In this document: in pieces, positions 47,560 to 61,481 of the stretch | How positions within the stretch are numbered: position 1 is the first letter of the stretch | Layout: the number at the start of each line of letters is the position of its first letter | Source of the DNA: a bacterium | Lineage (GTDB): Bacteria; UBA4055 | DNA length: 63,260 nucleotides | Direction: 5' to 3' | Assembly (NCBI GenBank): GCA_029559475.1 | Contig: JAKQBN010000043.1 | Coordinates: 1-63,260, forward strand | Notes under the pieces: model-generated | Told to the model about the DNA's origin: nothing | The model's database searches: none | Seen by the model: only the letters and a program-made list of their open reading frames with translations | Program-made: the position numbers and the translations under genes

Positions 47560-47805
47560 TTATTTTAAATACCCGTTTACGAGATCACATATCTTATTCA
47601 CCGTATCGAAAGCTTCCGGAGTTGCTTTGTCGTCCGGAATTGAGATCTTATATTTATTCTCAAGAAATCTTTTTAAAGAAACCATTGAGAAAGAGTCCAC
47701 GATCCCGCCTGATATCAGAGGTGTGTCATAAGTTAGAACTTCATCCTCGTCTTCTAGATATTCGTTGATCACGTACTGAAGTACGATGTCTTTCATTTCT
47801 GCCAT
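47560..47805 (-). CDS. Acyl carrier protein (non-fatty-acid-synthase type)
   Basis: 81 residues. The phosphopantetheine attachment serine is Ser38 in GGIVDSFSMVSL, the DS motif of carrier proteins followed by a hydrophobic helix II. The sequence is not the standard AcpP and is not near fab genes. It lies between an acetate-CoA ligase gene (41 bp upstream) and the two alpha-oxoamine synthase genes (11 bp downstream). In sphingolipid-making bacteria a dedicated ACP pairs with a serine palmitoyltransferase of the same synthase family, so this ACP may supply the acyl group to one of the paralogues. A CAGGAGA ribosome site precedes the ATG. Confidence 0.88.
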   Translation of the reverse strand: MAEMKDIVLQYVINEYLEDEDEVLTYDTPLISGGIVDSFSMVSLKRFLENKYKISIPDDKATPEAFDTVNKICDLVNGYLK

Positions 47806-47846
47806 TTTGATTCTCCTGTTTTTAACTTTTTTATTAATAATTGTTT

Positions 47847-49550
47847 TTAATCATCTTCAAGTGTTGATGTATCGCCGATGTCCTGACCCCATTCCTGAGC
47901 CCTGAGCATTCTTCTCATTATCTTGCCGCTCCTGGTTTTGGGCAGTTTGTCGAGATACTCTATCTCCTGAGGCATTGCTAAAGGCGACAGTTTTTTTCTG
48001 ATGAAGTTCATGATCTCAAGCTCAAGATCATCGTTCGGTTCGTAACCGGGTTTTAATGTAACGAAGGCCTTCACGACCTCCATATTCACTTCATCCGGTT
48101 TGGAAACAACTGCGGATTCTGCTACTGCAGGATGCTCAAGAAGCGCCGATTCGACTTCGAACGGGCTGACGAGGTGACCGGCTGTGTTGATGACATCGTC
48201 ATCCCTGCCTACGAACCAATAGTAGCCGTCTTTATCGATCGTTGATTTATCGCCGGGCAAATACCAGCCGTTGGAAAATTTCTTTTTATAAGTTTCCTCG
48301 TTGTTCCAGTAAGTCCTCATCATCGACGGCCATCCGGGTCTGAATCCGATCAGACCGGGTTTATTGGGTTCTGTTATCGGTTCAAATGTTTTTTCGTCAA
48401 GAACTGCGGCAGTTATTCCCGGAAACGGTTTTCCCATTGAACCCGGCTTTATTTTCATTCCGGGGTAATTGCAGATCATCATCGATCCTGTCTCCGTCTG
48501 CCAGTAAGTGTCATAGAAAGGAAGCCCGAATACTTTTTCTGACCAGATTACAGCCTCGGCATTAAGGGGTTCGCCGACACTTGCAAGATGTCTGAGACTG
48601 CTGAGGTCGAACTGTTTGACCAATTCAGCTCCCGCCTTCATTAATGATCTGATCGCTGTCGGCGCGGAATACCACATTGAGATCTTATGCTTTTCAATGA
48701 ACTTATACCAGTTCTCCGCTGAGAAACCCGCATCGAGCACGCACTGTGTAGCTCCGTTCGCCCAAGCTCCTATGATGCCGTAAGAAGTTCCCGTAACCCA
48801 TCCGGGATCGGCGGTACACCAGTAAATATCGCTGTCCTGAATGTCGAGAACCCACTTTGCAGTAAGATACTGCGACATTATGGAATAGTGAACATGTTTT
48901 ACGCCTTTGGGCAGACCGGTGGTTCCCGAAGTATAATGCAGAACTGAAGGCGATTCTGCTTTTGTCGGGAATATATCGAATTTGTCTATCTTTTCAGCTT
49001 TTTCGAGATCGAAGGCTTTTTCTCTTTCTTTTAAAGGTTTAAGCCCGTCGTGGTCGACAATAATTATATGCTCGAGAGAAGGCATCCTGTCGAGAAGTTT
49101 TCTTACCTTACCCACATGCTTTCTCTGGGTGATTATTGCCTTTGTCTGAGCGCTGTCGAGCCTTACGAAAAGGCTTTCGTCACCGAACGCTGAGAACAGC
49201 GGCTGAGCAATTGCTCCTATCTTCAGAACGCCCAGAAAACCGAGATAGAGTTCAGGTATTTTGTCCATAAAAAGACATACCCTGTCCTCCTCTTTAACTC
49301 CGAGGTTTCTCAGGTAATGTCCTATTGTGTTAGTAGCTTTTCTTATGTCATCGAAAGTATATTTTTTTTCTTCGCCCGAATATCCTTCCCAGATTAGAGC
49401 TGTTTTGTCCGCTTTACCCATCTGACAGATCCTGTCGGTGCAGTACCATCCGATATTGATCACGTTACCGGGTTTATAATCAAGCTCTTTCTCAGCAATT
49501 TCCCAGCTGAAATCTTTGATTCTTTCTTCGTAGGAATCTATGTTTGCCAT
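47847..49550 (-). CDS. acsA: Acetate-CoA ligase (AcsA type)
   Basis: AMP-forming ligase that activates acetate, or a short acid, to acyl-CoA. From the ATG with the better ribosome spacing (GGAGGA, six bases) the product has 567 residues. It has the AMP-binding loop YTSGTTGLPKGVKH, the acyl-pocket motif DTYWQTETGSM, GWYLPGDK, GRDDDVINTAGHLVSPFEVE and the catalytic lysine region PKTRSGKIMRR near the end. In AcsA enzymes the pocket motif is DTWWQTETG; here the first Trp is Tyr, so a somewhat larger acid is possible. It is closest in layout to Bacillus AcsA. ACP and two Kbl-type genes follow, so its product may feed them. Confidence 0.88.
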   Translation of the reverse strand: MANIDSYEERIKDFSWEIAEKELDYKPGNVINIGWYCTDRICQMGKADKTALIWEGYSGEEKKYTFDDIRKATNTIGHYLRNLGVKEEDRVCLFMDKIPELYLGFLGVLKIGAIAQPLFSAFGDESLFVRLDSAQTKAIITQRKHVGKVRKLLDRMPSLEHIIIVDHDGLKPLKEREKAFDLEKAEKIDKFDIFPTKAESPSVLHYTSGTTGLPKGVKHVHYSIMSQYLTAKWVLDIQDSDIYWCTADPGWVTGTSYGIIGAWANGATQCVLDAGFSAENWYKFIEKHKISMWYSAPTAIRSLMKAGAELVKQFDLSSLRHLASVGEPLNAEAVIWSEKVFGLPFYDTYWQTETGSMMICNYPGMKIKPGSMGKPFPGITAAVLDEKTFEPITEPNKPGLIGFRPGWPSMMRTYWNNEETYKKKFSNGWYLPGDKSTIDKDGYYWFVGRDDDVINTAGHLVSPFEVESALLEHPAVAESAVVSKPDEVNMEVVKAFVTLKPGYEPNDDLELEIMNFIRKKLSPLAMPQEIEYLDKLPKTRSGKIMRRMLRAQEWGQDIGDTSTLEDD

Positions 49551-49590
49551 GTACATTCCTCCAATTTTATTTTTTAATTCTGATTGTCTT

Positions 49591-50013
49591 TTAAACTTTA
49601 AATTTCGTAGCCAAATGGTCGCCCGGCTTAATAAATTCGATCTGTGCCGGTTTGAGTTTCAGAAGACAGAATCCTTTGTCTTCGGGAGTTTTGAAGAACA
49701 TCCTTATGAAGCTTATCTTTTCAAAAACATTTTTTCTGACAGCTTTTGATCTGACGAAAGTGATGCTTCCAGAAATTCTCAGATAGCCGGCATTTTTTTC
49801 ATCTTTCAGATCATAGCACAGTTCTATATTCTTGTTTTTTTTCAGCTGACAGACCTTGTTATCCTCTGTTCCGGTAGAAAAGAACATTTCCTCATCCAAC
49901 CAGATCAAAGTAACAGGCCTGACCCTGGGAAATTCGCCGTCATAAGTCGCCAAATGGACAAACTGAGTCTCTTTCAGATACTTTTTAAGCATATCATCGG
50001 TTTTCTTACTCAT
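49591..50013 (-). CDS. Pyridoxamine 5'-phosphate oxidase-like flavin-binding protein
   Basis: 140 residues from the ATG that has a GGAG site six bases upstream; a further in-frame ATG lies four codons earlier. The split-barrel fold is visible from FVHLATYDGEFPRVRPVTLIW, FFSTGTEDNKVCQLKKN and YLRISGSITFV, the pattern of the PPOX-like/YzzA family that binds FMN or F420. True PdxH is longer and has more active-site residues, so vitamin B6 synthesis is unlikely. Substrate unknown. It lies 40 bp upstream of acsA on the same strand and may head that operon. Confidence 0.8.
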   Translation of the reverse strand: MSKKTDDMLKKYLKETQFVHLATYDGEFPRVRPVTLIWLDEEMFFSTGTEDNKVCQLKKNKNIELCYDLKDEKNAGYLRISGSITFVRSKAVRKNVFEKISFIRMFFKTPEDKGFCLLKLKPAQIEFIKPGDHLATKFKV

Positions 50014-50045
50014 GATCGGCTCCATAATTAATAAACAAGATTAAT

Positions 50046-50074
50046 AATTTATAATATTATTCTGATTAAATCAA
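50046..50074 (-). promoter_or_regulatory. Candidate promoter of the PPOX-acsA-ACP-KBL run
   Basis: On the leftward strand TTGATT, exactly 17 bp, then TAAATT, about 33 bases before the preferred PPOX start. Confidence 0.4.
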
Positions 50075-50100
50075 ATAAAATCTGTTTTAAATTACACAAA

Positions 50101-50122
50101 TAAAAAACCCCCTTTCGGGGGT
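50101..50122 (-). terminator. Terminator of the MFS transporter gene
   Basis: Stem ACCCCC / GGGGGT with a TTTC (leftward GAAA) tetraloop and a following T-run on the leftward strand, 22 bases after the MFS stop codon. Confidence 0.88.
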
Positions 50123-50143
50123 AAATTTTTCCTGTCATATTCT

Positions 50144-51394
50144 TCATTCAGCTTTGTGTTTAATCCTGTTGAGAATGAATGTAAAAACAAGAGTAATAAG
50201 AAGAGATGCACCTGCAATTATAAACGACAAATTGCTGTTGCCGGAACTTGCAAGCCGCTGTGAAATGCTGCTGAAAACCAGACCTCCCAGTCCCCATGCA
50301 GACATTAATATACCGTAGTTCATACCGAAATTCTTGAGTCCCCAGTACCCTTTCGTAAGTGTCGGAAACAGGGATAGATTAGTACCGTAATTGAATCCGA
50401 TGAAAGTTGCGAGCAGCACGATTACCAGAGGCGAAGAATCACCGCTTACAATTTTTATCGCCATGAACATCAGAATGGCCTGAAAAAGAATTATTATAGA
50501 AAGGGTAAGTATTCTGCCTATCTTGTCTGAAACAAGCCCGGCGATTATTCTGCCCGAAGCATTGCCTATGGCCATTATCGCAACTGCTACAAATGCAGCT
50601 TCTCCCATGCTTTTCTTTGCCAGTCCCGATATGTTGGCAATTACCATAAGACCCGCCCCCGAGCTTATGAAGAAAGTGATCCACATCAGGTAGAAAACGG
50701 GCGTTTTCAGCATATAGCCAGGTCCGTGATTTTCTGTAGTATTAGCGTTCTTATTCGATGAGGCTTGAACATTTCCCTGCGCAGGAACATAACCCTGAGG
50801 GGGATTTTTCAAAAGCATTGCAGCTCCGCATACAATGATAATGAATGCTATACCGAATACGAGCATAGTTCTTTGAAGACCATAGTTGTTTACAAGATAT
50901 GTCGCCAGCGGCGCGATATAAACGGGAGCTAATCCGAAACCCGATACAACAATGCCTGATACCATTCCTGTTTTAGATGAATGAAACCATTTTAAAGCCG
51001 GCGGTGTTGCGGCGGAATATCCGAACCCTATGCCTGTACCAGCAAGCAGTCCGAACCCTATTACCCACATTGCATAACTTGTAGTAAAAGATACGAGAAT
51101 AAAACCTATACCGACAAAGACGCCGCCTATCAATGCTGTTAACAGCGGACCTTTTTTATCCTGAAGTTTTCCTGCGGCGATCATCGATAGTGCGAAAGTC
51201 AGCGTGCAAACAGCATAAGGATCATTTAGAGATGCAATGTCCCAAGTAAATGCGTTCTCTCCGCCTGTCTCGATAGATTTTTTAATACTTTCTTTGAAGA
51301 CGCTCCAGGTATATAGAATACCCAGCGCAAGATTGATAAAAAGCCCGGCTCCGGCTACAGTCCAACCTCTGTTTTTGATCTCTTGTGCAGTCAT
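50144..51394 (-). CDS. MFS transporter, OFA (oxalate/formate antiporter) family
   Basis: 416-residue inner-membrane carrier with about twelve helices. The first helix carries NLALGILYTWSVF, the hallmark of the OFA family, and the MFS loop motif is seen as GKLQDKKGP after helix 2 and as GLVSDKIGR in the second half. Family members exchange carboxylates such as oxalate/formate or take up monocarboxylates. The substrate cannot be read here. It is a single-gene unit with its own terminator. It stands between the acsA run and the six-gene cassette; transport of a carboxylate for acsA would be attractive but is only inference. A GGAG site lies six bases before the ATG. Confidence 0.9.
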   Translation of the reverse strand: MTAQEIKNRGWTVAGAGLFINLALGILYTWSVFKESIKKSIETGGENAFTWDIASLNDPYAVCTLTFALSMIAAGKLQDKKGPLLTALIGGVFVGIGFILVSFTTSYAMWVIGFGLLAGTGIGFGYSAATPPALKWFHSSKTGMVSGIVVSGFGLAPVYIAPLATYLVNNYGLQRTMLVFGIAFIIIVCGAAMLLKNPPQGYVPAQGNVQASSNKNANTTENHGPGYMLKTPVFYLMWITFFISSGAGLMVIANISGLAKKSMGEAAFVAVAIMAIGNASGRIIAGLVSDKIGRILTLSIIILFQAILMFMAIKIVSGDSSPLVIVLLATFIGFNYGTNLSLFPTLTKGYWGLKNFGMNYGILMSAWGLGGLVFSSISQRLASSGNSNLSFIIAGASLLITLVFTFILNRIKHKAE

Positions 51395-51462: not shown

Positions 51463-51501
51463 ACAAAAAACAAGTTGATTTTGACACTGTAGTTTTTTGT
51501 A
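51463..51501 (-). terminator. Possible terminator of the six-gene cassette
   Basis: Ten-base A/T-rich arms TACAAAAAAC and GTTTTTTGTA around a 19-base loop, directly after the last gene of the cassette, followed on the leftward strand by TTTGTTTTATTATTTT. The long loop and weak stem make it less certain than the other terminators. Confidence 0.4.
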
Positions 51502-52113
51502 TTATCTTCCGAGATAATATTTAGCGGTCTCATTGTCTTTCTGAAGTATTATCACTCCCGCAAAGATCTTTAAAGCCTCTTCTTTATCGCCTTTTAAAAA
51601 TTTACTTTCTGCGAGAATGTTTAAAAATTCGATGTTCGACGGAAAAACAGCCAGCATTTTTTCTGCCGCTTTGACAGCCTGATCATATTTTTTCTGCCTG
51701 AAAAGAGCTACTGAATACCAGTAGTTCGCGTAATAATTATAATAATCTATCTTCATTATCCTGCCGGACTGAACTTCGACTTTCTCCCATTCGAGCTGCG
51801 ACGCATATATAAGATTTATCGTGTTCATTACTTCAACAGAATACGGGAACTGAGCAAGGGCATTCTCAAGATGCTTCATTCCGTTCGCAAAATTTCCCTG
51901 TAGATAATATAGCCAGCCAAGTCTGTAGTTTACGGTATATCCTGAAGGATAGTTCTTTATCACTCCGCTAAGTGCCGATATCGCTTTATCGTATTTCTGA
52001 GATGCTTCGTATTTGAATGAGGAGTCGTAAGCATCTTCAAGTTCCTTCTGCGTCATTTCTGCATATAGCCCAAAGATCAGGCCGATGATAATTACTAATA
52101 CTGCTTTTTTCAT
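51502..52113 (-). CDS. Exported TPR-repeat protein, last gene of the six-gene cassette
   Basis: 203 residues from the ATG that begins the signal peptide MKKAVLVIIIGLIFGLYA; upstream in-frame ATGs exist and the ribosome site GGAG is nine bases away. The mature protein is built of about five tetratricopeptide repeats (for example YRLGWLYYLQGNFANGMKHL and FRQKKYDQAVKAAEKML). It should be periplasmic and act as a binding scaffold. Its frame overlaps the end of the upstream beta-barrel gene by up to ten bases. Its place at the end of the PqqD-to-barrel cassette implies a role in the same envelope process. Confidence 0.85.
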   Translation of the reverse strand: MKKAVLVIIIGLIFGLYAEMTQKELEDAYDSSFKYEASQKYDKAISALSGVIKNYPSGYTVNYRLGWLYYLQGNFANGMKHLENALAQFPYSVEVMNTINLIYASQLEWEKVEVQSGRIMKIDYYNYYANYWYSVALFRQKKYDQAVKAAEKMLAVFPSNIEFLNILAESKFLKGDKEEALKIFAGVIILQKDNETAKYYLGR

Positions 52114-52118
52114 TTCGC

Positions 52119-53546
52119 TCATCTCCATCTGTAATTTGCTATTATTGAGTTAGTCATTATTTTGTAATCATCAAAATCAGAGTATGAAAAAGTGTAGCCG
52201 AGTATCCAGTCTCCGAACAACTTCTTGAATATTACACCTCCGAGTATATTGGATTTAAGTTTGGAATCATTCGTATTAAGATACCTCCCTTCACCCGTAT
52301 TCACAAGAAACATGTCGCCGGTTGTAAAACTCGAAAAAACATCATATTCCCCCTTATTATAGCCTGCAGTGATTCCGTAAAGAAGCCTTACATCTCCTGA
52401 AGCTATATTTTCCGATATCGTTGTAAGAAGTGTATCCCTGTCCGAGATTTCCATATCTTCGGCGTAACCCGATCCCGGTTCCTGCACAATATTGGCAACT
52501 CCGCCTAAGTAAATTCCTCTGAATGTGAAAGCTCCGTCAATAGTAAATTGAAGAGAGGTCATTGTACTTTGATGTTTCGTGTAATCGCTTCTCCCTGAGT
52601 ATCCGCCGCCCTGTTTTACCAGCGTATTGAAAGTATAAGTATTATAGGTAAGCCCGGAAACATTGAAAAATGTGTTCGCCCTGAAATAGTCGGTCATGCT
52701 GAATCTGCAGCCTGCCGAGGCCGAAAATACATTTTGGATATAGTCGTTTATCAGCCAGCCGGTTTTTATACCTGTATAAAATGAAGTTTTTCCGGACATA
52801 TAATAATTGTACTGCCCGAATACCTCATACTGATTTATGTCTTCGTAGAATAGAAACCCGAGACTTTCGTTTAGATCTTTATTGACCGATGTTCCCTGCA
52901 TGTCGAGATTTAAATTGAATTTGTGCTGACGCGGCCCGAAATTGTAATTCAGATTGAAATTATATCCGCTTTCCAGAAGATCGTTTCCTGTGTAATCATA
53001 CAAAGAGAAAATGATGTCCAGATATTTTTTATCGTCATAAATTAACTCAGAACTTCTTCTGTACGCATTTTTAAACTCATCACTTTTAAACCCGGCATCG
53101 AGAGCTTTTTTATACCATTCTGCCGTTTTCATATAATATCCTGTCTGAACAAGACCTGATCCGGCCATGCTGTATATGGCCCTTTTTCTGAAAAAATCCT
53201 TTTCACTTTTCAGAAATTTTTCCGCGCCTGATGTTTTTCCAAGCAGTGCGTCTGAGTAAATAACTCTGTCCTGATTCATCTGCGAATTTCTGATCTTGAG
53301 TAATTTATACGCATAATTATTAGCTGTTTTTATTCCGCCTGAATTTATGCTCGCGTTGTAAATCCCTTCTTTCGCGCCTAGATTAGAAGGATCTATGCTC
53401 TCGGCCTGAAAATAAAGATCAAGCGCAGTTTCCAGATCGCCTTTAAAATAATATTCATCTCCTTTTAACAAGAGAGAGTCAGCTTCGCTCATTCCGTAAA
53501 CAGCGCTTAAAAAGCTCAGAATTATAACTAATGTTCTTAATCTCAT
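52119..53546 (-). CDS. TPR plus outer-membrane beta-barrel protein of the six-gene cassette
   Basis: 475 residues. A signal peptide (about 1-18) precedes a helical TPR-type domain (about 20-180; LLLKGDEYYFKGDLETALDL and similar), then a C-terminal half with alternating aromatic/polar strands (about 190-475; YNFNLNYNFGPRQHKFNLNL, ending SIIANYRWR) typical of an outer-membrane beta-barrel of about twelve to sixteen strands. TPR-barrel proteins of this layout often export or dock polymers or lipids, though no family is recognised. It overlaps the upstream urea-transporter/M23 gene by four bases (ATGA) and the downstream TPR gene by a few bases, so all are translated together. Confidence 0.82.
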   Translation of the reverse strand: MRLRTLVIILSFLSAVYGMSEADSLLLKGDEYYFKGDLETALDLYFQAESIDPSNLGAKEGIYNASINSGGIKTANNYAYKLLKIRNSQMNQDRVIYSDALLGKTSGAEKFLKSEKDFFRKRAIYSMAGSGLVQTGYYMKTAEWYKKALDAGFKSDEFKNAYRRSSELIYDDKKYLDIIFSLYDYTGNDLLESGYNFNLNYNFGPRQHKFNLNLDMQGTSVNKDLNESLGFLFYEDINQYEVFGQYNYYMSGKTSFYTGIKTGWLINDYIQNVFSASAGCRFSMTDYFRANTFFNVSGLTYNTYTFNTLVKQGGGYSGRSDYTKHQSTMTSLQFTIDGAFTFRGIYLGGVANIVQEPGSGYAEDMEISDRDTLLTTISENIASGDVRLLYGITAGYNKGEYDVFSSFTTGDMFLVNTGEGRYLNTNDSKLKSNILGGVIFKKLFGDWILGYTFSYSDFDDYKIMTNSIIANYRWR

Positions 53547-55624
53547 ATTTTCTCTAATCTAATTAATTTATTACCTTCCCTGATCGTAATTTTCCTAAAT
53601 CCCTTTTTGTCGCACAACTCGGCTGTTGTCTCACATAAAACTTTACCTTTAAGTACAATTTTACCTGATATTATGCTCCTGTCTTTTTTTGTATAGAAAC
53701 CGCACATTTTGTTGAATTTGTGGTTAAAGGATTTTATAACAGTAGGGATAAAAGACCTTTTCCAGACATTTTCAGGGATATACTCGTTCCATTCGATCAG
53801 CTCGTCATCTGAAAGCGGTAACGAAGGGAGAGATATAAAAAGATATCTTAATGGCGAACGCTGATCCCCGTCGTACTTAAAAAAGACGAATCTGTCTTTG
53901 TCATTTCCGAAATATAGCCTGTTGTTTTTCCCATCAGAAAAATAGTATGTTCCGTCTGTTTCCATTTTAACTTCGCAAATAAGTTCGCCGGTTCTAATAT
54001 CATCTTCAAAAACACTGAATTTGAATTCATCGTCGAGAATGAACTGCATTATTCTTGTCAGCGTTTTGGATGGAGCGAGAGCGGTGACTTCATCGCCTTT
54101 CTTTAAATATCTCGGATCAAGGTTAAGATCGTTCACTTTAAAACTATTAAAGACAAACTCCATTCCCGCCGAACCTATCAGATGGGAATACTGAACCTGA
54201 ACATGAAGATGAGGCTCGGGAGAATATCCTGAGTTTCCGCATTCCGCCAGTAATTGTCCTTTTGATACCTGATCGTTCTTTTTAACCTTGGCCGAATCTT
54301 TTTTTAAGTGCGATAATTCAACATAATATCCGGGATAGAAATAAATTATTATATAATTCCCCCAGTTATTGATCTTATCAACTTCGCCAATCTCATTATC
54401 TTCAGCCTCATCGTAAACTTCTATTACAGTACCGTCAACTGGAGACACGACAGGTTTTCCGTAACATAAATAATCCTGTTTATCCTTTCCTTCATTTTTA
54501 AATGTCTTTCCATTCTCCTTAATGACAAAATCATATGCATAACGCCATAACCCTTTATGCGTCCAATCACCGTCAAAAGACTGATATACCGTCCATTTTC
54601 CAAAAAAAGGCAGGTTTATTGCGGGAGTAGTCCAGTCGAACCTGTTCTTATAGTTAAGATGATCGTCCAATGATCTTTCAGGCTGTTCGAGATTCGTATT
54701 GTTCATCATTACATATTTCACGCTGCCCAGAACATAAATGTAAAGAAGGACGGTCAAATTAAAAGGTAGAGTGAAGACCGGTATTCCGAACGACACCCAG
54801 AAAGCCGATGCCGCGTCTATTACAAAGACCGATGTAAGTACAGCTGAAAGAGTGAGAAGATATGTTCTTTTTGACGGTATTAAGAACATTCCGCCGAGGC
54901 TCATGCCGACCAGAATGAAATTGAAAGAGGAAACTTCTAAAAACGCAAGAGGAACGCTTCCTTTTAATAGCGCGAGGAAATATATTCCTGCATAATACGA
55001 CAGAACCGCCGTAAAGAAAGTTATCCGCGAATAAATAAGAACGGCTGTCAGGAGAATTATTCCAATGATATCATAAGGCATGAAAATCAATATGCCGGCA
55101 GCTCTTAAAAGCCCCTGAATGAACGCGGGAATTCCTTCTATATTGAAATATTCCTGTTTATAGAAAGAATCGACTATCAGATTGCTGTATTTGCCTGAAG
55201 CGAGATAGATTATCATGGCCGAGATTGTAAAAGGTATGTTCAATACAGGCAGCCTGAAATATAAATATAGGGCTGAACTGAGAGTATATGTGAGCAGAAC
55301 CGTAAATATGCTCATTCCGCAGGCGAAAAGAACAGAAAGCGCGGTAATTTTGAACAGAAATCCCGCCGCGAATCCCGTAAGCAGCGAATTGTAGGAGATT
55401 AGCCTGTTTACCGGATCGTCATTTTTAATTCCAATGAATCTAGTGAAAATAAGAGCCGTTAAAAGAGAAAATAATCCCAGAACAGCTATATTTTTATTGA
55501 AAAGAGTCGCGGCGAACAGTAAAAGTCCGACGAATCTGTTGCGGATAAAGAATAGGTTTGAATAGGCGTACGTTACCTCTTCAGAAAATATTCTGACAGA
55601 TTCTTTTATCTGCTCAGTTCTCAT
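53543..55624 (-). CDS. Urea-transporter domain fused to an M23 (LytM) peptidase domain
   Basis: 693 residues. The N-terminal half (about 20-315) is a urea-transporter (UT/Yut) fold: two homologous membrane halves with SYNSLLTGFAAGFLF and LPVLNIPF in the first, and FNFILVGMSLGGMFLIPS and GIPVFTLPFNL in the second. The C-terminal half has an M23 metallopeptidase domain (about 340-510) with possible zinc ligands in WTHKGLWRYAYDF and the HLHVQ motif near 472, after SHLKKD and a GNSG turn. The spacing between the first His and the Asp is eight residues, wider than the HxxxD of LytM. A beta-rich tail (about 520-690) follows. The peptidase should face the periplasm. No urease genes are present. It lies 6 bp from the decarboxylase gene. 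Confidence 0.88.
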   Translation of the reverse strand: MRTEQIKESVRIFSEEVTYAYSNLFFIRNRFVGLLLFAATLFNKNIAVLGLFSLLTALIFTRFIGIKNDDPVNRLISYNSLLTGFAAGFLFKITALSVLFACGMSIFTVLLTYTLSSALYLYFRLPVLNIPFTISAMIIYLASGKYSNLIVDSFYKQEYFNIEGIPAFIQGLLRAAGILIFMPYDIIGIILLTAVLIYSRITFFTAVLSYYAGIYFLALLKGSVPLAFLEVSSFNFILVGMSLGGMFLIPSKRTYLLTLSAVLTSVFVIDAASAFWVSFGIPVFTLPFNLTVLLYIYVLGSVKYVMMNNTNLEQPERSLDDHLNYKNRFDWTTPAINLPFFGKWTVYQSFDGDWTHKGLWRYAYDFVIKENGKTFKNEGKDKQDYLCYGKPVVSPVDGTVIEVYDEAEDNEIGEVDKINNWGNYIIIYFYPGYYVELSHLKKDSAKVKKNDQVSKGQLLAECGNSGYSPEPHLHVQVQYSHLIGSAGMEFVFNSFKVNDLNLDPRYLKKGDEVTALAPSKTLTRIMQFILDDEFKFSVFEDDIRTGELICEVKMETDGTYYFSDGKNNRLYFGNDKDRFVFFKYDGDQRSPLRYLFISLPSLPLSDDELIEWNEYIPENVWKRSFIPTVIKSFNHKFNKMCGFYTKKDRSIISGKIVLKGKVLCETTAELCDKKGFRKITIREGNKLIRLEKI

Positions 55625-55630
55625 CTGCCT

Positions 55631-56989
55631 CTATTCCTTAAAGTTAAACTTCTTCAGTTTCGCAGGCACACTCTCCGGCCCTACTATGTCCTGAAGCGTT
55701 TCCGGTCTTCTGATCTGTTCGACAGATCTATCGGTCATTATCATGGCTACGGCGGGACGGTACCTGATGAACTGCATCCACTGTGTCATGTTGTAAGCGC
55801 CCATCGGAGATAGTATCAGCCTTGTGCCTTTTGGCAAAGGCGGCAGGAATGCGCTTTCGACAACAACATCGATGTTCATGCAGAGAGGGCCGTAAATTAT
55901 GCTGTTCTCGTACGCTCCGCGTATTTCCCTGTCTATTTCCACATGATAATTGTACCAGGCTGACGTATAAAGAAGGTTGACTCCAGCGTCAATTATATAG
56001 CTTTTAGTCCCGTCGGGAAGCCTTTTTACCGCGTCAACGGTCGTTATAAGCCAGCCGGCCTCATCAACTATGGCCCTTCCTGTTTCAAGATAAACTTCCG
56101 GATATTCCTTAGGCTCGAGCTCTTCCATTAAAGTATCCGCTACAGCATCGATAAAATTCTCGACCGGCTGTACCGATACTTCCGGCGGCAGATAAGTTCC
56201 TTTAAGTTTGTTCCTCGAGGGGAACCCGCCGCCGAAATCAAGATATGAGACAGATATTTCGAATTCCTTTTCGATCTTACGCATAAGCTGAACGACCTTC
56301 TTCACAGCTTCTTTATAGGCATTCGGTTCAAGCATGAAAGTACCGATGTGGCAGTGTATACCTTCGAGACGGAGATAATCGCTGTGCTGTATTCTCTTCA
56401 CGGCGTTGAAAGCGTTGCCGTTCTCTATTACGAAACCGAATCTGGACCACTGCGGATAAACCCCTGTGTCCATCGTCACCCTTATGCCGACAGGGAATTT
56501 TTTGCCTAAACTTTTAGCGGCTTCTTCGGCCTTGATTATCTCGTCGAAATTATCCAGATTCACCATCGCGCCTTCTTTTAAGGCTGTTACGATCGATTCA
56601 AGAGGCTTATACGGACCGTTGTATATTATTTTATTGCCCGGAACTCCGAGCCTTCTAGCTTTCTGATATTCGAAATCCGATACGACTTCGGCGGTCTCGC
56701 CTTCCTGATGAAGAACGGAACATACAGCGTCAAGATAGTTCGTTTTATACGACCATGACATTTTAGCTTTGGGATATTTGCTTGAAAAATATGAATATAT
56801 CGTTCTGTATCTTTCTCTTATTATCTTTTCGCTCAACACGAACACTGGCGATCCGAATTTATCTGTTATTTGAGCAACCGGAACGCCTTCGATCTCCTCC
56901 CTGTGCCCTTTATTATACGTTACGCCGAATTTGTTCATCACTCCGGCGGTCTGCTTTTTTATATAAGGTTTTACATATTCTTTCTTCAT
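55631..56989 (-). CDS. Fold-III PLP-dependent decarboxylase-like enzyme (LysA/BtrK-like)
   Basis: 452 residues with an alanine-racemase-like barrel and a C-terminal beta domain. The PLP lysine is Lys82 in WSYKTN; HCHIGT, LDFGGGF and the phosphate-binding ETGR follow (canonical EPGR), and GPLC supplies the active-site cysteine of decarboxylases. After GPLC the usual E-S/T-D sequence is replaced by MNIDVV, and the C-terminal GAYN is kept (MGAYNMTQW). True diaminopimelate decarboxylase is therefore unlikely; the substrate may be another amino acid, free or carrier-bound. The gene has one base between it and the ATP-grasp gene and six to the transporter/peptidase gene, so it belongs to the cassette. 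Confidence 0.85.
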   Translation of the reverse strand: MKKEYVKPYIKKQTAGVMNKFGVTYNKGHREEIEGVPVAQITDKFGSPVFVLSEKIIRERYRTIYSYFSSKYPKAKMSWSYKTNYLDAVCSVLHQEGETAEVVSDFEYQKARRLGVPGNKIIYNGPYKPLESIVTALKEGAMVNLDNFDEIIKAEEAAKSLGKKFPVGIRVTMDTGVYPQWSRFGFVIENGNAFNAVKRIQHSDYLRLEGIHCHIGTFMLEPNAYKEAVKKVVQLMRKIEKEFEISVSYLDFGGGFPSRNKLKGTYLPPEVSVQPVENFIDAVADTLMEELEPKEYPEVYLETGRAIVDEAGWLITTVDAVKRLPDGTKSYIIDAGVNLLYTSAWYNYHVEIDREIRGAYENSIIYGPLCMNIDVVVESAFLPPLPKGTRLILSPMGAYNMTQWMQFIRYRPAVAMIMTDRSVEQIRRPETLQDIVGPESVPAKLKKFNFKE

Positions 56990-56990
56990 C

Positions 56991-58043
56991 TTATTCTCCT
57001 TTTTCCGCCGATTCGCCGAAAGTGCTTACCTGTTCGAAATCGGATATATCTTTAACGAGTTCGTTCGTATGTCTTATCATAAGTTTACCGCTTTTATAGT
57101 CCGAATGAGTATCGTATTCCTGACCTGTAAGAAGCTGAACCATCCGCGCAGGCAGATTTATTCCGCATCCGGCCGGGAAATAAACCCATGCAGGGAATCT
57201 CGGATTTATCTCAAGAACATAAATATCCTGAGTTTTATCTTCGAGAAGCACCTCGAACTCGAACCCGCCCCGCCATGATAACCCTTTCACAACTTTTTTC
57301 GTTGCACTTATCAGCTTTTCGTTCCTGACGCTGACAGCGTTCCATACTTTGCCCAACTTGGTTATGGTCATTTTCCTGATCGCGAACACGCCCATGTCGT
57401 TCCCGTTGCCGTCCCCGCAGCCTATCACATCATATTCGTCGCCCTGTATGAATTTTTGAGCTATGATAGGATATCCCCATGCTACGGCTATCTTTGTAAA
57501 GTATCCCTCTGCCTCTCCTATGGAATTCGCTTTATATGCTTCATAGAACGGTCCTTTCACCATCAGAGGGAATCCGAGTTTTTTCGCCGCTTCGTGAAGA
57601 TCGGTCAGAGATGTGCAGCTCAGATATTCCGGCGCTTTTACACCTATTTTTTCCGCGAGTTCTTTCAGCCTTAGTTTATCTCTGAGCCTGAACATTTCTT
57701 TTGTAGGTATCAGCATTTTTATGCCCATATCTTTTAGTACCGGCTCTATATCCATATATATCGGCAGTTCGGCGTCAAGAGCGGAAATAATGACATCTAT
57801 GCATTCTCTTGAATGAATATCCTTTATTCTGTCTATGAACGATTCCCTGCTTCCTGAAGGGTACGGCATTATATAGCTTTTATCTATAATTTGGTCAAGA
57901 TATATCCCGGGTTCGAGAGCGTCGTATGCCAGCCCTATCGTCCGTACATCCATCCCGCTTTCTTTCAGCGCTCTGCAGATACCGGCACCGGGACCCGGAT
58001 TGTCGATAGTGTTTATTCCGCTTACTGCAACAGTTATTTTCAT
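56991..58043 (-). CDS. ATP-grasp ligase of the six-gene cassette
   Basis: 350 residues. An N-terminal Rossmann-like pre-ATP-grasp domain (about 1-110; VAVSGINTIDNPGPGAGICR) precedes the ATP-grasp fold (about 115-310) with KLGFPLMVKGP for the nucleotide-binding lysine, IIAQKFIQGDEYDV, and the metal-binding EINPRFPAW. The family makes amide or thioester bonds through an acyl phosphate. It resembles carbamoyl-phosphate-synthase-like amino acid ligases (PylC or BtrJ in style), not D-Ala-D-Ala ligase. The substrate is unknown. It lies 9 bp behind the PqqD-like gene and one base before the decarboxylase gene. Confidence 0.87.
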   Translation of the reverse strand: MKITVAVSGINTIDNPGPGAGICRALKESGMDVRTIGLAYDALEPGIYLDQIIDKSYIMPYPSGSRESFIDRIKDIHSRECIDVIISALDAELPIYMDIEPVLKDMGIKMLIPTKEMFRLRDKLRLKELAEKIGVKAPEYLSCTSLTDLHEAAKKLGFPLMVKGPFYEAYKANSIGEAEGYFTKIAVAWGYPIIAQKFIQGDEYDVIGCGDGNGNDMGVFAIRKMTITKLGKVWNAVSVRNEKLISATKKVVKGLSWRGGFEFEVLLEDKTQDIYVLEINPRFPAWVYFPAGCGINLPARMVQLLTGQEYDTHSDYKSGKLMIRHTNELVKDISDFEQVSTFGESAEKGE

Positions 58044-58052
58044 AGGGGCCGC

Positions 58053-58295
58053 CTAAAGCAGAAAATATTTTTTAAGGTTTTCGATAAAATCGTTAATATC
58101 TACGCTAAGTTCATCCTCGCCGGCTTCATACTCGTCAGCCATAGCCGATTTTACTCCTTCCATATCTTTTCCATCTTTAAGAAGCTCAAGTATCCTTAAG
58201 CCTGTGGAATTAGCAGTATATGAATGACCCGTCACGGGGTCGAAAATGAATCCGCTCTCGCTTATCGCCAGCACCGCCAGTTTATCCCTGTCCAT
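58053..58295 (-). CDS. PqqD-like small protein heading the six-gene cassette
   Basis: 80 residues from the ATG at 58295, which has a GGGAGG ribosome site; the longer frame starts at a TTG without one. The strand pattern AVLAISESGFIFDPVTGHSY, ANSTGLRILELLKDGKD and a C-terminal helix ending LKKYFLL match PqqD-type proteins. PqqD and its relatives bind the leader of a precursor peptide and present it to a modifying enzyme (RiPP recognition elements). No precursor-peptide gene is recognisable in the 145 bp upstream or elsewhere in the cassette, so it could bind a distant peptide or act as a carrier itself. It follows the promoter at 58389-58417. Confidence 0.85.
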   Translation of the reverse strand: MDRDKLAVLAISESGFIFDPVTGHSYTANSTGLRILELLKDGKDMEGVKSAMADEYEAGEDELSVDINDFIENLKKYFLL

Positions 58296-58388
58296 TTCGC
58301 CTCCCTTACCATTATGGCACTTTAAATGTGTGAACGTGTTACCCAAAAAATTATTTTACGGCAATATTAGAAATAAGACCGCTTATAT

Positions 58389-58417
58389 AATATAATATTG
58401 AAATACTAATTTATCAA
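58389..58417 (-). promoter_or_regulatory. Sigma-70 promoter of the six-gene cassette
   Basis: On the leftward strand TTGATA, exactly 17 bp, then TATATT. It is preceded by the end of prmA and leaves a leader of about 85 nt before the PqqD-like gene, so the cassette is its own transcription unit. Confidence 0.6.
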
Positions 58418-60302: not shown

Positions 60303-61481
60303 CTATCTCAAATACAGCATTTTAGCCGTACTTTCTGTTTTCCCGTTTATCTTCAGCTGATAAAAATAAATTCCTGAGTCAAGGCCGTCAGCTTCGAACA
60401 CTACCGAATGCACACCTTTTTTCAGAGAGCAATTATTCAGGCATTTTACAAGCTGTCCTTTCTGATTGTAAACTGATAGCTCCGCTTTTCCGCTTACAGG
60501 CATGTCCCATGAAATTACTGTTGAGGAATTGAACGGGTTGGGATAATTTTTCAACAGAACGGGAGATCGAACCGAGCTGATAATTTCTTCAATTCCTGTA
60601 GCGCCTGCGCCGGTCTTTTTTACGAAAAGTTTGATATACCACGCACCTGCATAGTCCGGTGAATATTCTTCCGGATGTTCCCATCCTGCTGATTCAGAAT
60701 AGATCCAAGTGTGATCGCTGTTTCCCGCCGGATCCATAGACATGAAATTGGAAGTAGTAGTAAAAACGACTGCTATTGATCCGGTTAAAGTTGAAATAAA
60801 ATCGTCGTCAATAAATGCGCTCCAGCCCCCGATCATACTTTTTGTTCCGTATAAAGACCCAATTAAAGAATCTGTAGGGACTTCATCAAAATTTACTATT
60901 TCCCAGTCAGCCATGCCATCCCACGCATAACCAAATTCTACAGAATTCAGTTCATAGAAATCATTACCCAATTCGAAAACATAAGCAGCTTTCCATTGTG
61001 AATTTCCGCTCCCGATGCAGTTTTCCGGAACAAAAGAAAACGAGGTGCCTCCTGCGATCCATTGATAATCGGGATCTTCGACTCTTATAAGAAACTCATC
61101 CGAGGCAGTTCCGCAATTAGTAACGATAGTTATATTTGCATATGCATGACCATACACATTATTACTTGTAATTATTTTTAATGAATCTTCATTGCTGTTA
61201 AAATTAGCTGAACGAATCGGAGATATCTCTGATATGCTAGTAACTTTTCTTGACAAACTGTAAACATTTAAGGTATCAATTGACCAGTTGAATATATCGT
61301 ACACACTTATAGCAAGAGTATCTGCTAATGTTAACAATTGATCCGGTACTGGATTTTCCACCCAGATCGAGCTGTCCTGCTTAGTTTCCTGCTTACCGGG
61401 AGAATGATCAGCTAATTTTTCAAAACCGGCGCTGCAAGACAATGAAATCATGAATATTATTAATAGAAAAATCTTTTTCAA
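60303..61481 (-). CDS. Secreted protein with C-terminal type IX secretion sorting tail
   Basis: 392 residues. An export signal (about 1-16) ends at LSC, possibly a lipoprotein cysteine. Residues about 40-120 resemble an immunoglobulin-like fold (VTNCGTASDEFLIRVED), and about 125-290 form a beta-rich, Trp/Tyr-rich region of unknown family. The last 80 residues form the Por-secretion/FlgD-like tail: KNYPNPFNSSTVISWDMP, ELSVYNQKGQLV, LDSGIYFYQLKI, STAKMLYLR. In FCB bacteria this tail sends proteins through the type IX system to the surface. A lipobox and a sorting tail together would be unusual. No T9SS component gene is in the window. Confidence 0.85.
   Translation of the reverse strand: MKKIFLLIIFMISLSCSAGFEKLADHSPGKQETKQDSSIWVENPVPDQLLTLADTLAISVYDIFNWSIDTLNVYSLSRKVTSISEISPIRSANFNSNEDSLKIITSNNVYGHAYANITIVTNCGTASDEFLIRVEDPDYQWIAGGTSFSFVPENCIGSGNSQWKAAYVFELGNDFYELNSVEFGYAWDGMADWEIVNFDEVPTDSLIGSLYGTKSMIGGWSAFIDDDFISTLTGSIAVVFTTTSNFMSMDPAGNSDHTWIYSESAGWEHPEEYSPDYAGAWYIKLFVKKTGAGATGIEEIISSVRSPVLLKNYPNPFNSSTVISWDMPVSGKAELSVYNQKGQLVKCLNNCSLKKGVHSVVFEADGLDSGIYFYQLKINGKTESTAKMLYLR

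Follow-up and report, generated by a model that had tools for sequence, protein, structure and literature searches.

What does a PqqD-like protein recognize when no precursor peptide is encoded beside it? The question is raised by a cassette of six genes on contig JAKQBN010000043.1 of the bacterial assembly GCA_029559475.1 (lineage UBA4055), a stretch of 63,260 nucleotides that is referred to here as the window. The cassette encodes, in order, a PqqD-like protein, an ATP-grasp ligase, a pyridoxal phosphate (PLP)-dependent decarboxylase, a urea transporter-type membrane protein fused to an M23 peptidase (UT-M23), a predicted outer-membrane beta-barrel protein and a tetratricopeptide repeat (TPR) protein. 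The first-pass annotation of this DNA had proposed that the first three products load and decarboxylate an amino acid on an acceptor, and had named the missing precursor peptide as the main gap. The answer favored here, to which we give slightly better than even chances, is that the cassette encodes a conserved conjugate-then-decarboxylate pathway with its own envelope module, in which the decarboxylase is brought to the ligase by docking on PqqD.

The observation newly made here is a tail motif, [YW]xxPx[ILVFM], found at the start of every cassette decarboxylase, in 44 of 44 loci (40 loci together with L208, L209, L211 and the window). The motif lies in a conserved stretch that the decarboxylase alignment reveals ahead of the catalytic domain, and its proline, P8, is invariant among 25 members. 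It is followed by an extension, GxxNK[FY]G, that is kept in nearly all loci, the exceptions being L145, where it is lost, and L147 and L208, where NK is replaced by NV and SK, respectively. At the DNA level, the pattern KPx[hydrophobic]x5GxxNKFG was found in 19 of 386 genomes, each time on the same contig as a ligase match and within about 2 kb of it, and gave no matches in a reversed control. Among 583 other open reading frames (ORFs) at these loci, the short motif occurs within the first 40 residues of 13 (14 were counted, one of which was the window's own decarboxylase and was excluded) and the full motif in none. The tail motif is also absent from the separate bona fide LysA proteins of the same genomes.

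Tail residues 5-22 have a conservation score of 0.64, equal to that of the catalytic domain, compared with 0.37 for the linker between them. In the AlphaFold2 model the catalytic domain is of high confidence, while pLDDT falls below 50 at residues 11-20 and 22-26, and the tail is accordingly predicted to be disordered. Conserved yet disordered, it looks like a peptide ligand. A search for a conserved short ORF near about 40 loci, as suggested in the first-pass annotation, returned none apart from PqqD, and a hidden precursor peptide encoded as a separate short ORF was rejected on this result. The gap noted in that annotation is instead explained by the decarboxylase tail with its YxxPxI motif. 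As the motif sits on this tail and not on a short ORF of its own, the cassette does not have the appearance of a standard peptide-modification cluster.

The tail motif matches one that is bound by the RiPP (ribosomally synthesized and post-translationally modified peptide) recognition elements (RREs) of lasso peptide pathways. Discrete lasso RREs recognize [Y/W]xxPx[L/V/I/F/A], and LppB uses N33 to fix the proline kink, D70 to bond the tyrosine, and F74 to flank the proline and the second hydrophobic pocket (PMC13381572). Recognition of the Y/W/LxxP type has also been listed for the FusE, McjB and PqqD groups in a recent survey (PMC12710340). The closest solved structures to the cassette PqqD are the lasso RREs TbiB1 and TfuB1. 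Its residues N29, D66 and F70 correspond to N33, D70 and F74 of LppB, are invariant in 14 of 14 diverse members, and show the same D-F spacing as LppB. The cassette PqqD is very probably an RRE-type docking protein, and we strongly infer from sequence that its ligand is the disordered tail of the decarboxylase.

What this docking would bring together is suggested by the two enzymes. The decarboxylase is closest, in both sequence and fold, to the N-citrylornithine decarboxylase FigC (7kh2; top fold match, TM 0.80), and it also matches the BtrK structures 7ru7 and 2j66. FigC, SbnH, AcsE, MccE and BtrK form a branch that acts on conjugated amino acids, with BtrK decarboxylating a carrier-bound amino acid (PMC7857480). 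In the cassette enzymes, the PLP-binding Lys82, the stacking His214 and the catalytic Cys370 are invariant (25 of 25 members). Placement in the conjugated-amino-acid branch, rather than with LysA, is supported, and an enzyme of this kind would fit the load-and-decarboxylate proposal of the first-pass annotation. The ligase scores far below the cut-off of its NCBIfam match (PRK12767-like), and its closest solved structures are 2pn1 and carbamoyl phosphate synthase (CPS). Positions K163, Q196 and E262 are invariant, and E278 and N280 nearly so, among 22 members, and by its sequence the ligase is assigned to the CPS-like branch with conserved ATP-grasp positions. BtrJ of the butirosin pathway is an ATP-grasp enzyme that groups with carbamoyl phosphate synthases in one clade (PMC4431377). 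Given a FigC/BtrK-like decarboxylase and a CPS-branch ligase, the most economical reading is a ligation step and then decarboxylation of the resulting conjugate.

The gene order is kept far beyond the window. The full order of PqqD, ligase, decarboxylase, UT(-M23), barrel and TPR protein recurs in other Delongbacteria (L032, L033, L038, L039), in Desulfurobacterium thermolithotrophum (L035) and many other Aquificota genomes, and in at least three loci of further families (L142, L150, L153). In still other families the first four genes are found in order, and an orthologue of the TPR protein stands last in the cassettes of Delongbacteria, Aquificota and other families. Forty ligase loci were compared, some of them from one species or from sister species and hence not independent of each other. 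PqqD is the immediate upstream neighbor of the ligase at all 40, the decarboxylase its immediate downstream neighbor at 39 (at the remaining one the contig ends), and the UT protein comes next in 34. In the set of 386 genomes, mostly one per genus, the ligase was found in 27 and UT-M23, counted only where the match extends into the membrane domain, in 29; both are present in 25, the ligase alone in 2, UT-M23 alone in 4 and neither in 355 (Fisher p = 6e-33, the genomes not being fully independent). Among 136 Aquificota genomes, which are likewise not fully independent, 40 have both, 2 and 2 have one alone, and 92 have neither (Fisher p = 2e-29). The association is far beyond chance, and a UT match was found in 13 of 13 families holding the ligase. 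Thus, the co-occurrence and conserved order in distant phyla that the first-pass annotation had proposed to look for were found in Delongbacteria, Aquificota and more families, and the phylum count, drawn from Delongbacteria, Aquificota and Campylobacterota, is a lower bound.

In three ligase-negative genomes (G010, G242, G161), the decarboxylase adjoins UT-M23 and the position of the ligase falls on a contig end or a masked stretch. The operon is split in G135-G137, G148, G163-G165 and G006, with both halves still in each genome, and in one Campylobacterota assembly the triad of PqqD, ligase and decarboxylase lies on one contig and UT-M23 and the TPR protein on another. Across 31 loci, correlations between the pairwise distances of PqqD, ligase, decarboxylase and UT range from 0.91 to 0.97. 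As these comparisons show, the six genes make up one inherited unit, with the triad as its inseparable core. An order kept across deep lineages, some of them with cultivated thermophiles (Desulfurobacterium, for example), points to a function that is probably important. In the open-licence literature, no relevant paper was found on PqqD or ATP-grasp proteins together with a urea transporter, or on other combinations of the cassette terms.

Several loci vary this layout. In Desulfurobacteriaceae-type genomes (L035 12181-14309; L075, L080, L085, L157, L158, L211), a gene for a DUF4405 membrane protein lies directly 5' of PqqD and, where the sequence was read, a DUF2202 protein is encoded beside it, even where UT-M23 has moved away; both proteins may be extra components of the cassette. 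The divergent cassette of L145 (8966-13934) encodes a pair of ATP-grasp paralogues, has its UT domain unaccompanied by M23 and lacks GxxNK[FY] in the tail, a natural variant that is useful for dissecting the roles of the components. The UT protein of L145 has 361 amino acids, and partial UT matches occur in G355 and G400. In L085 (7194-7484), a gene for a small cytochrome c-like protein lies between the ligase and decarboxylase genes, and in L078 (13190-15830) a second PqqD and a partial ATP-grasp copy precede an intact cassette, apparently as a local duplication or an assembly duplicate. On contig C107 of G161, stop codons break the UT-M23 frame near its start, beside a decarboxylase that is almost complete where the contig ends; the cassette may be decaying here, or the assembly may be at fault. 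In the Campylobacterota assembly, both halves of the split cassette border flagellar genes, with a flagellin gene at L208 and flagellar genes 5' of UT-M23 at L034, as read from sequence starts only.

In the window, the cassette spans 51502-58295, and the six leftward genes of the first-pass annotation are all present (Table 1). Their family names were confirmed by Pfam and NCBIfam scans, with only weak TPR matches for the TPR-barrel protein. The spacing of at most 9 base pairs (bp) plus overlaps was borne out, with measured gaps of 9, 1 and 6 bp followed by overlaps of 4 and 10 bp. PqqD starts at the ATG at 58295 behind GGGAGG, and its homologues do not use the 97-amino-acid ORF with a TTG start. 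The proposed promoter is present as a site, but is weak evidence because such sites are no commoner than in shuffled sequence (27 seen versus 22.2 +/- 5.2). The possible terminator, a hairpin behind the last gene with a 9-bp, almost purely A-U stem, is also present, but with a folding z-score of -0.51 it is weaker evidence than the promoter. The claim of a single transcription unit is upheld by the tight packing and by a gene order kept between phyla, and not by promoter or terminator signals.

Table 1. Features of the cassette in the window.
Feature	Position	Strand	Description and basis
PqqD-like protein	58053..58295	minus	80 amino acids, discrete RRE-type; Pfam PF05402 E=1e-10, above cut-off
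ATP-grasp ligase, carbamoyl-phosphate-synthase-like branch	56991..58043	minus	350 amino acids; Pfam ATP-grasp_3
Alanine-racemase-fold PLP decarboxylase	55631..56989	minus	452 amino acids; Pfam Orn_Arg_deC_N and C
Leader-like tail (residues 1-22) at the N terminus of the PLP enzyme, MKKEYVKPYIKKQTAGVMNKFG	56924..56989	minus	candidate PqqD ligand
UT-M23 fusion: urea-transporter-type membrane domain, M23 peptidase and untyped C-terminal domain	53543..55624	minus	693 amino acids; Pfam
Predicted outer-membrane beta-barrel protein with N-terminal TPR	52119..53546	minus	475 amino acids; AlphaFold2
TPR protein with signal peptide	51502..52128	minus	208 amino acids; multiple Pfam TPR matches
Possible sigma-70 promoter TTGATA-17-TATATT	58389..58417	minus	sequence match; weak

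The source assembly comprises 2.28 Mb, and its named relatives belong to Candidatus Delongbacteria. An Rfam scan gave no element near the cassette, its sole match being a tRNA elsewhere in the window. A role in anti-phage defence was rejected, with no match from PADLOC, as was a plasmid-borne cassette: the matches on plasmids were limited to generic LysA and to an ATP-grasp relative of 29% that lies in a different context on a Streptomyces plasmid. Located 3' of the cassette (47560-51394) are genes for an acyl-carrier-like protein, an AMP-binding ligase, a PNPOx-like protein and a major facilitator superfamily transporter, a group that was not seen at the other cassette loci examined; the best NCBIfam match of the acyl-carrier-like protein is an acyl carrier protein of ornithine-lipid biosynthesis, below cut-off. 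The protein encoded at 60303-61481 ends in a sorting domain of type IX secretion (Por_Secre_tail; its TIGR04183 score exceeds the cut-off), so that the lineage may have a type IX secretion system.

The second half of the cassette may act at the envelope. The membrane domain of UT-M23 matches Pfam UT (PF03253, E=7.7e-48, residues 20-298, above cut-off) and aligns to dvUT (3k3f), while its score with the urea transporter equivalog TIGR03441 is below the cut-off (75.9 vs 274.6). The Thr of the first LPxxTxPF repeat, which we take to have a role in urea transport, is replaced by N, S or A in the cassette UT, a change suggesting that its cargo may be something other than urea. The M23 domain (Peptidase_M23, E=1.3e-13, residues 388-479) retains the zinc-binding and catalytic residues H356, D365, H439, H472 and H474 in 16 of 16 members. 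In the AlphaFold2 model of the barrel protein, a signal helix and TPR helices reaching to about residue 169 are followed by 14 long strands, and the best fold matches, to BcsC and PelBC, are followed by FadL-type barrels. Orthologues in Aquificota lack the TPR part and mostly end in F or W. Transport or anchoring of a product by the UT-M23, barrel and TPR proteins is plausible.

In the conjugate-then-decarboxylate pathway proposed here, PqqD would, with strong indications from sequence, bind the decarboxylase tail and thereby hold decarboxylase and ligase in one complex. The ligase would spend ATP on coupling an amino acid to an acceptor through an amide or similar bond. The decarboxylase would then remove the conjugate's alpha-carboxylate, so that an amine remains, in the manner of BtrJ/BtrI/BtrK in butirosin or FigA/FigC in rhizoferrin synthesis. 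More speculatively, a small polar product or precursor might cross the inner membrane through the urea transporter-type channel, the M23 domain might act in the periplasm, and at the outer membrane the product might be handed on or anchored by the TPR and barrel proteins. Such a cassette opens a route to a new metabolite or a cell-envelope modification. Several points weigh against this proposal. The docking of the tail on PqqD is deduced from sequence comparison; L145 and L208 depart from the consensus in the second half of the tail motif, so its role may vary; L145 keeps the UT domain and the triad without M23, which is therefore not strictly required; and the target of the M23 and UT domains could have nothing to do with the product.

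One alternative makes the tail itself the acceptor, with PqqD presenting GxxNK[FY]G to the ligase, an amino acid being attached (for example, at Lys20) and the loaded arm entering the PLP site, after which the product would be released and exported by the UT-M23/barrel module. N19 (24 of 25), K20 (23 of 25) and G16 (24 of 25) are indeed conserved beyond the need of a YxxPxI docking motif, and BtrI/BtrK offer a precedent for a ligase combined with carrier-bound decarboxylation (PMC7857480). However, L147 has V in place of K20, L145 has lost the site and L208 has S in place of N, whereas [YW]xxPx[ILVFM] is kept at all loci, and a carrier in cis would be unprecedented. We consider this alternative unlikely; if true, a tail used as carrier would represent a biosynthetic logic without a precursor gene or acyl carrier protein. 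A low probability is also given to modification of the envelope, in which the amine or amide made by the triad would be put on peptidoglycan or an outer-membrane component while UT-M23 remodels the wall. The intact M23 active site and the presence of an outer-membrane barrel and TPR protein within the cassette are in keeping with this, yet the cassette has no transferase or Mur-like enzyme, and UT and triad persist in L145 without M23.

It is quite improbable that the tail is a mere structural arm of the decarboxylase and that PqqD binds something else, as the tail is predicted to be disordered, carries an RRE-type motif and has PqqD as neighbor of the ligase gene at every one of the 40 ATP-grasp loci. 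Ordinary lysine, polyamine or urea metabolism, with the PLP enzyme as LysA, ornithine decarboxylase or arginine decarboxylase and UT taking up or releasing urea, draws on the family-level similarity to LysA and UT, and is very improbable. In 12 genomes, the cassette enzymes score 197-236 bits with TIGR01048 (LysA), against a cut-off of 297.9, and six of the 12 have a separate LysA above that cut-off. Arg343 of diaminopimelate decarboxylase is absent, there being no Arg in the TSAWY segment (25 of 25 members); M371 follows C370 in all 25, in place of the acidic residue that binds free amino substrates; W345 occupies the site of the diaminopimelate- and amine-binding residues; and the urea-transporter Thr is replaced. 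A LysA or polyamine decarboxylase was rejected on the LysA cut-off and the two missing substrate-binding residues. A citrate-based siderophore pathway of the NRPS-independent siderophore (NIS) type has hardly any standing, even with FigC/FslC as the closest characterized relative, as the citryl contacts proposed for FigC by docking, H357, R387 and N389, are replaced by I/L373, Q403 and M/T/L in 25 of 25 members, on which a citrate siderophore was rejected, and the cassette has no NIS synthetase.

The cassette resembles several known systems in part and differs from each. Among these, the exopolysaccharide exporters BcsC and PelB, in which an N-terminal TPR region precedes an outer-membrane barrel, are the best fold matches of its barrel protein, which may have the same layout; however, the TM-scores are low (0.37-0.45) with 11% identity, the cassette has no glycosyltransferase, and the Aquificota version is a barrel only. 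FigA/FigC (FslA/FslC) of rhizoferrin synthesis provide the closest characterized decarboxylase, which likewise has Met beside the catalytic Cys and acts on a conjugated amino acid. In contrast to that system, the proposed citryl contacts are not kept, the cassette ligase is of the ATP-grasp and not the NIS type, and FigC does not align to the cassette tail, its match beginning at profile position 29. The BtrJ/BtrI/BtrK system for the butirosin side chain similarly pairs an ATP-grasp ligase gene with an alanine-racemase-fold decarboxylase gene (adjacent at 39 cassette loci). The cassette differs in having PqqD with a peptide tail, as well as an envelope module, and its decarboxylase is closer to FigC by score; neither the cassette nor the set of conserved short ORFs near the loci includes an acyl carrier protein. 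Finally, RRE-dependent RiPP clusters (B1 in lasso peptide pathways, PqqD in that of PQQ) have in common with the cassette a discrete PqqD/RRE protein and a [YW]xxPx[ILVF] recognition motif. Here, a separate precursor ORF was not found and the motif is fused to an enzyme of 430 residues, suggesting that what PqqD/RRE proteins recognize could be part of an enzyme, its own tail, and not only a precursor peptide. A PqqD gene met in genome mining may accordingly have a broader meaning.

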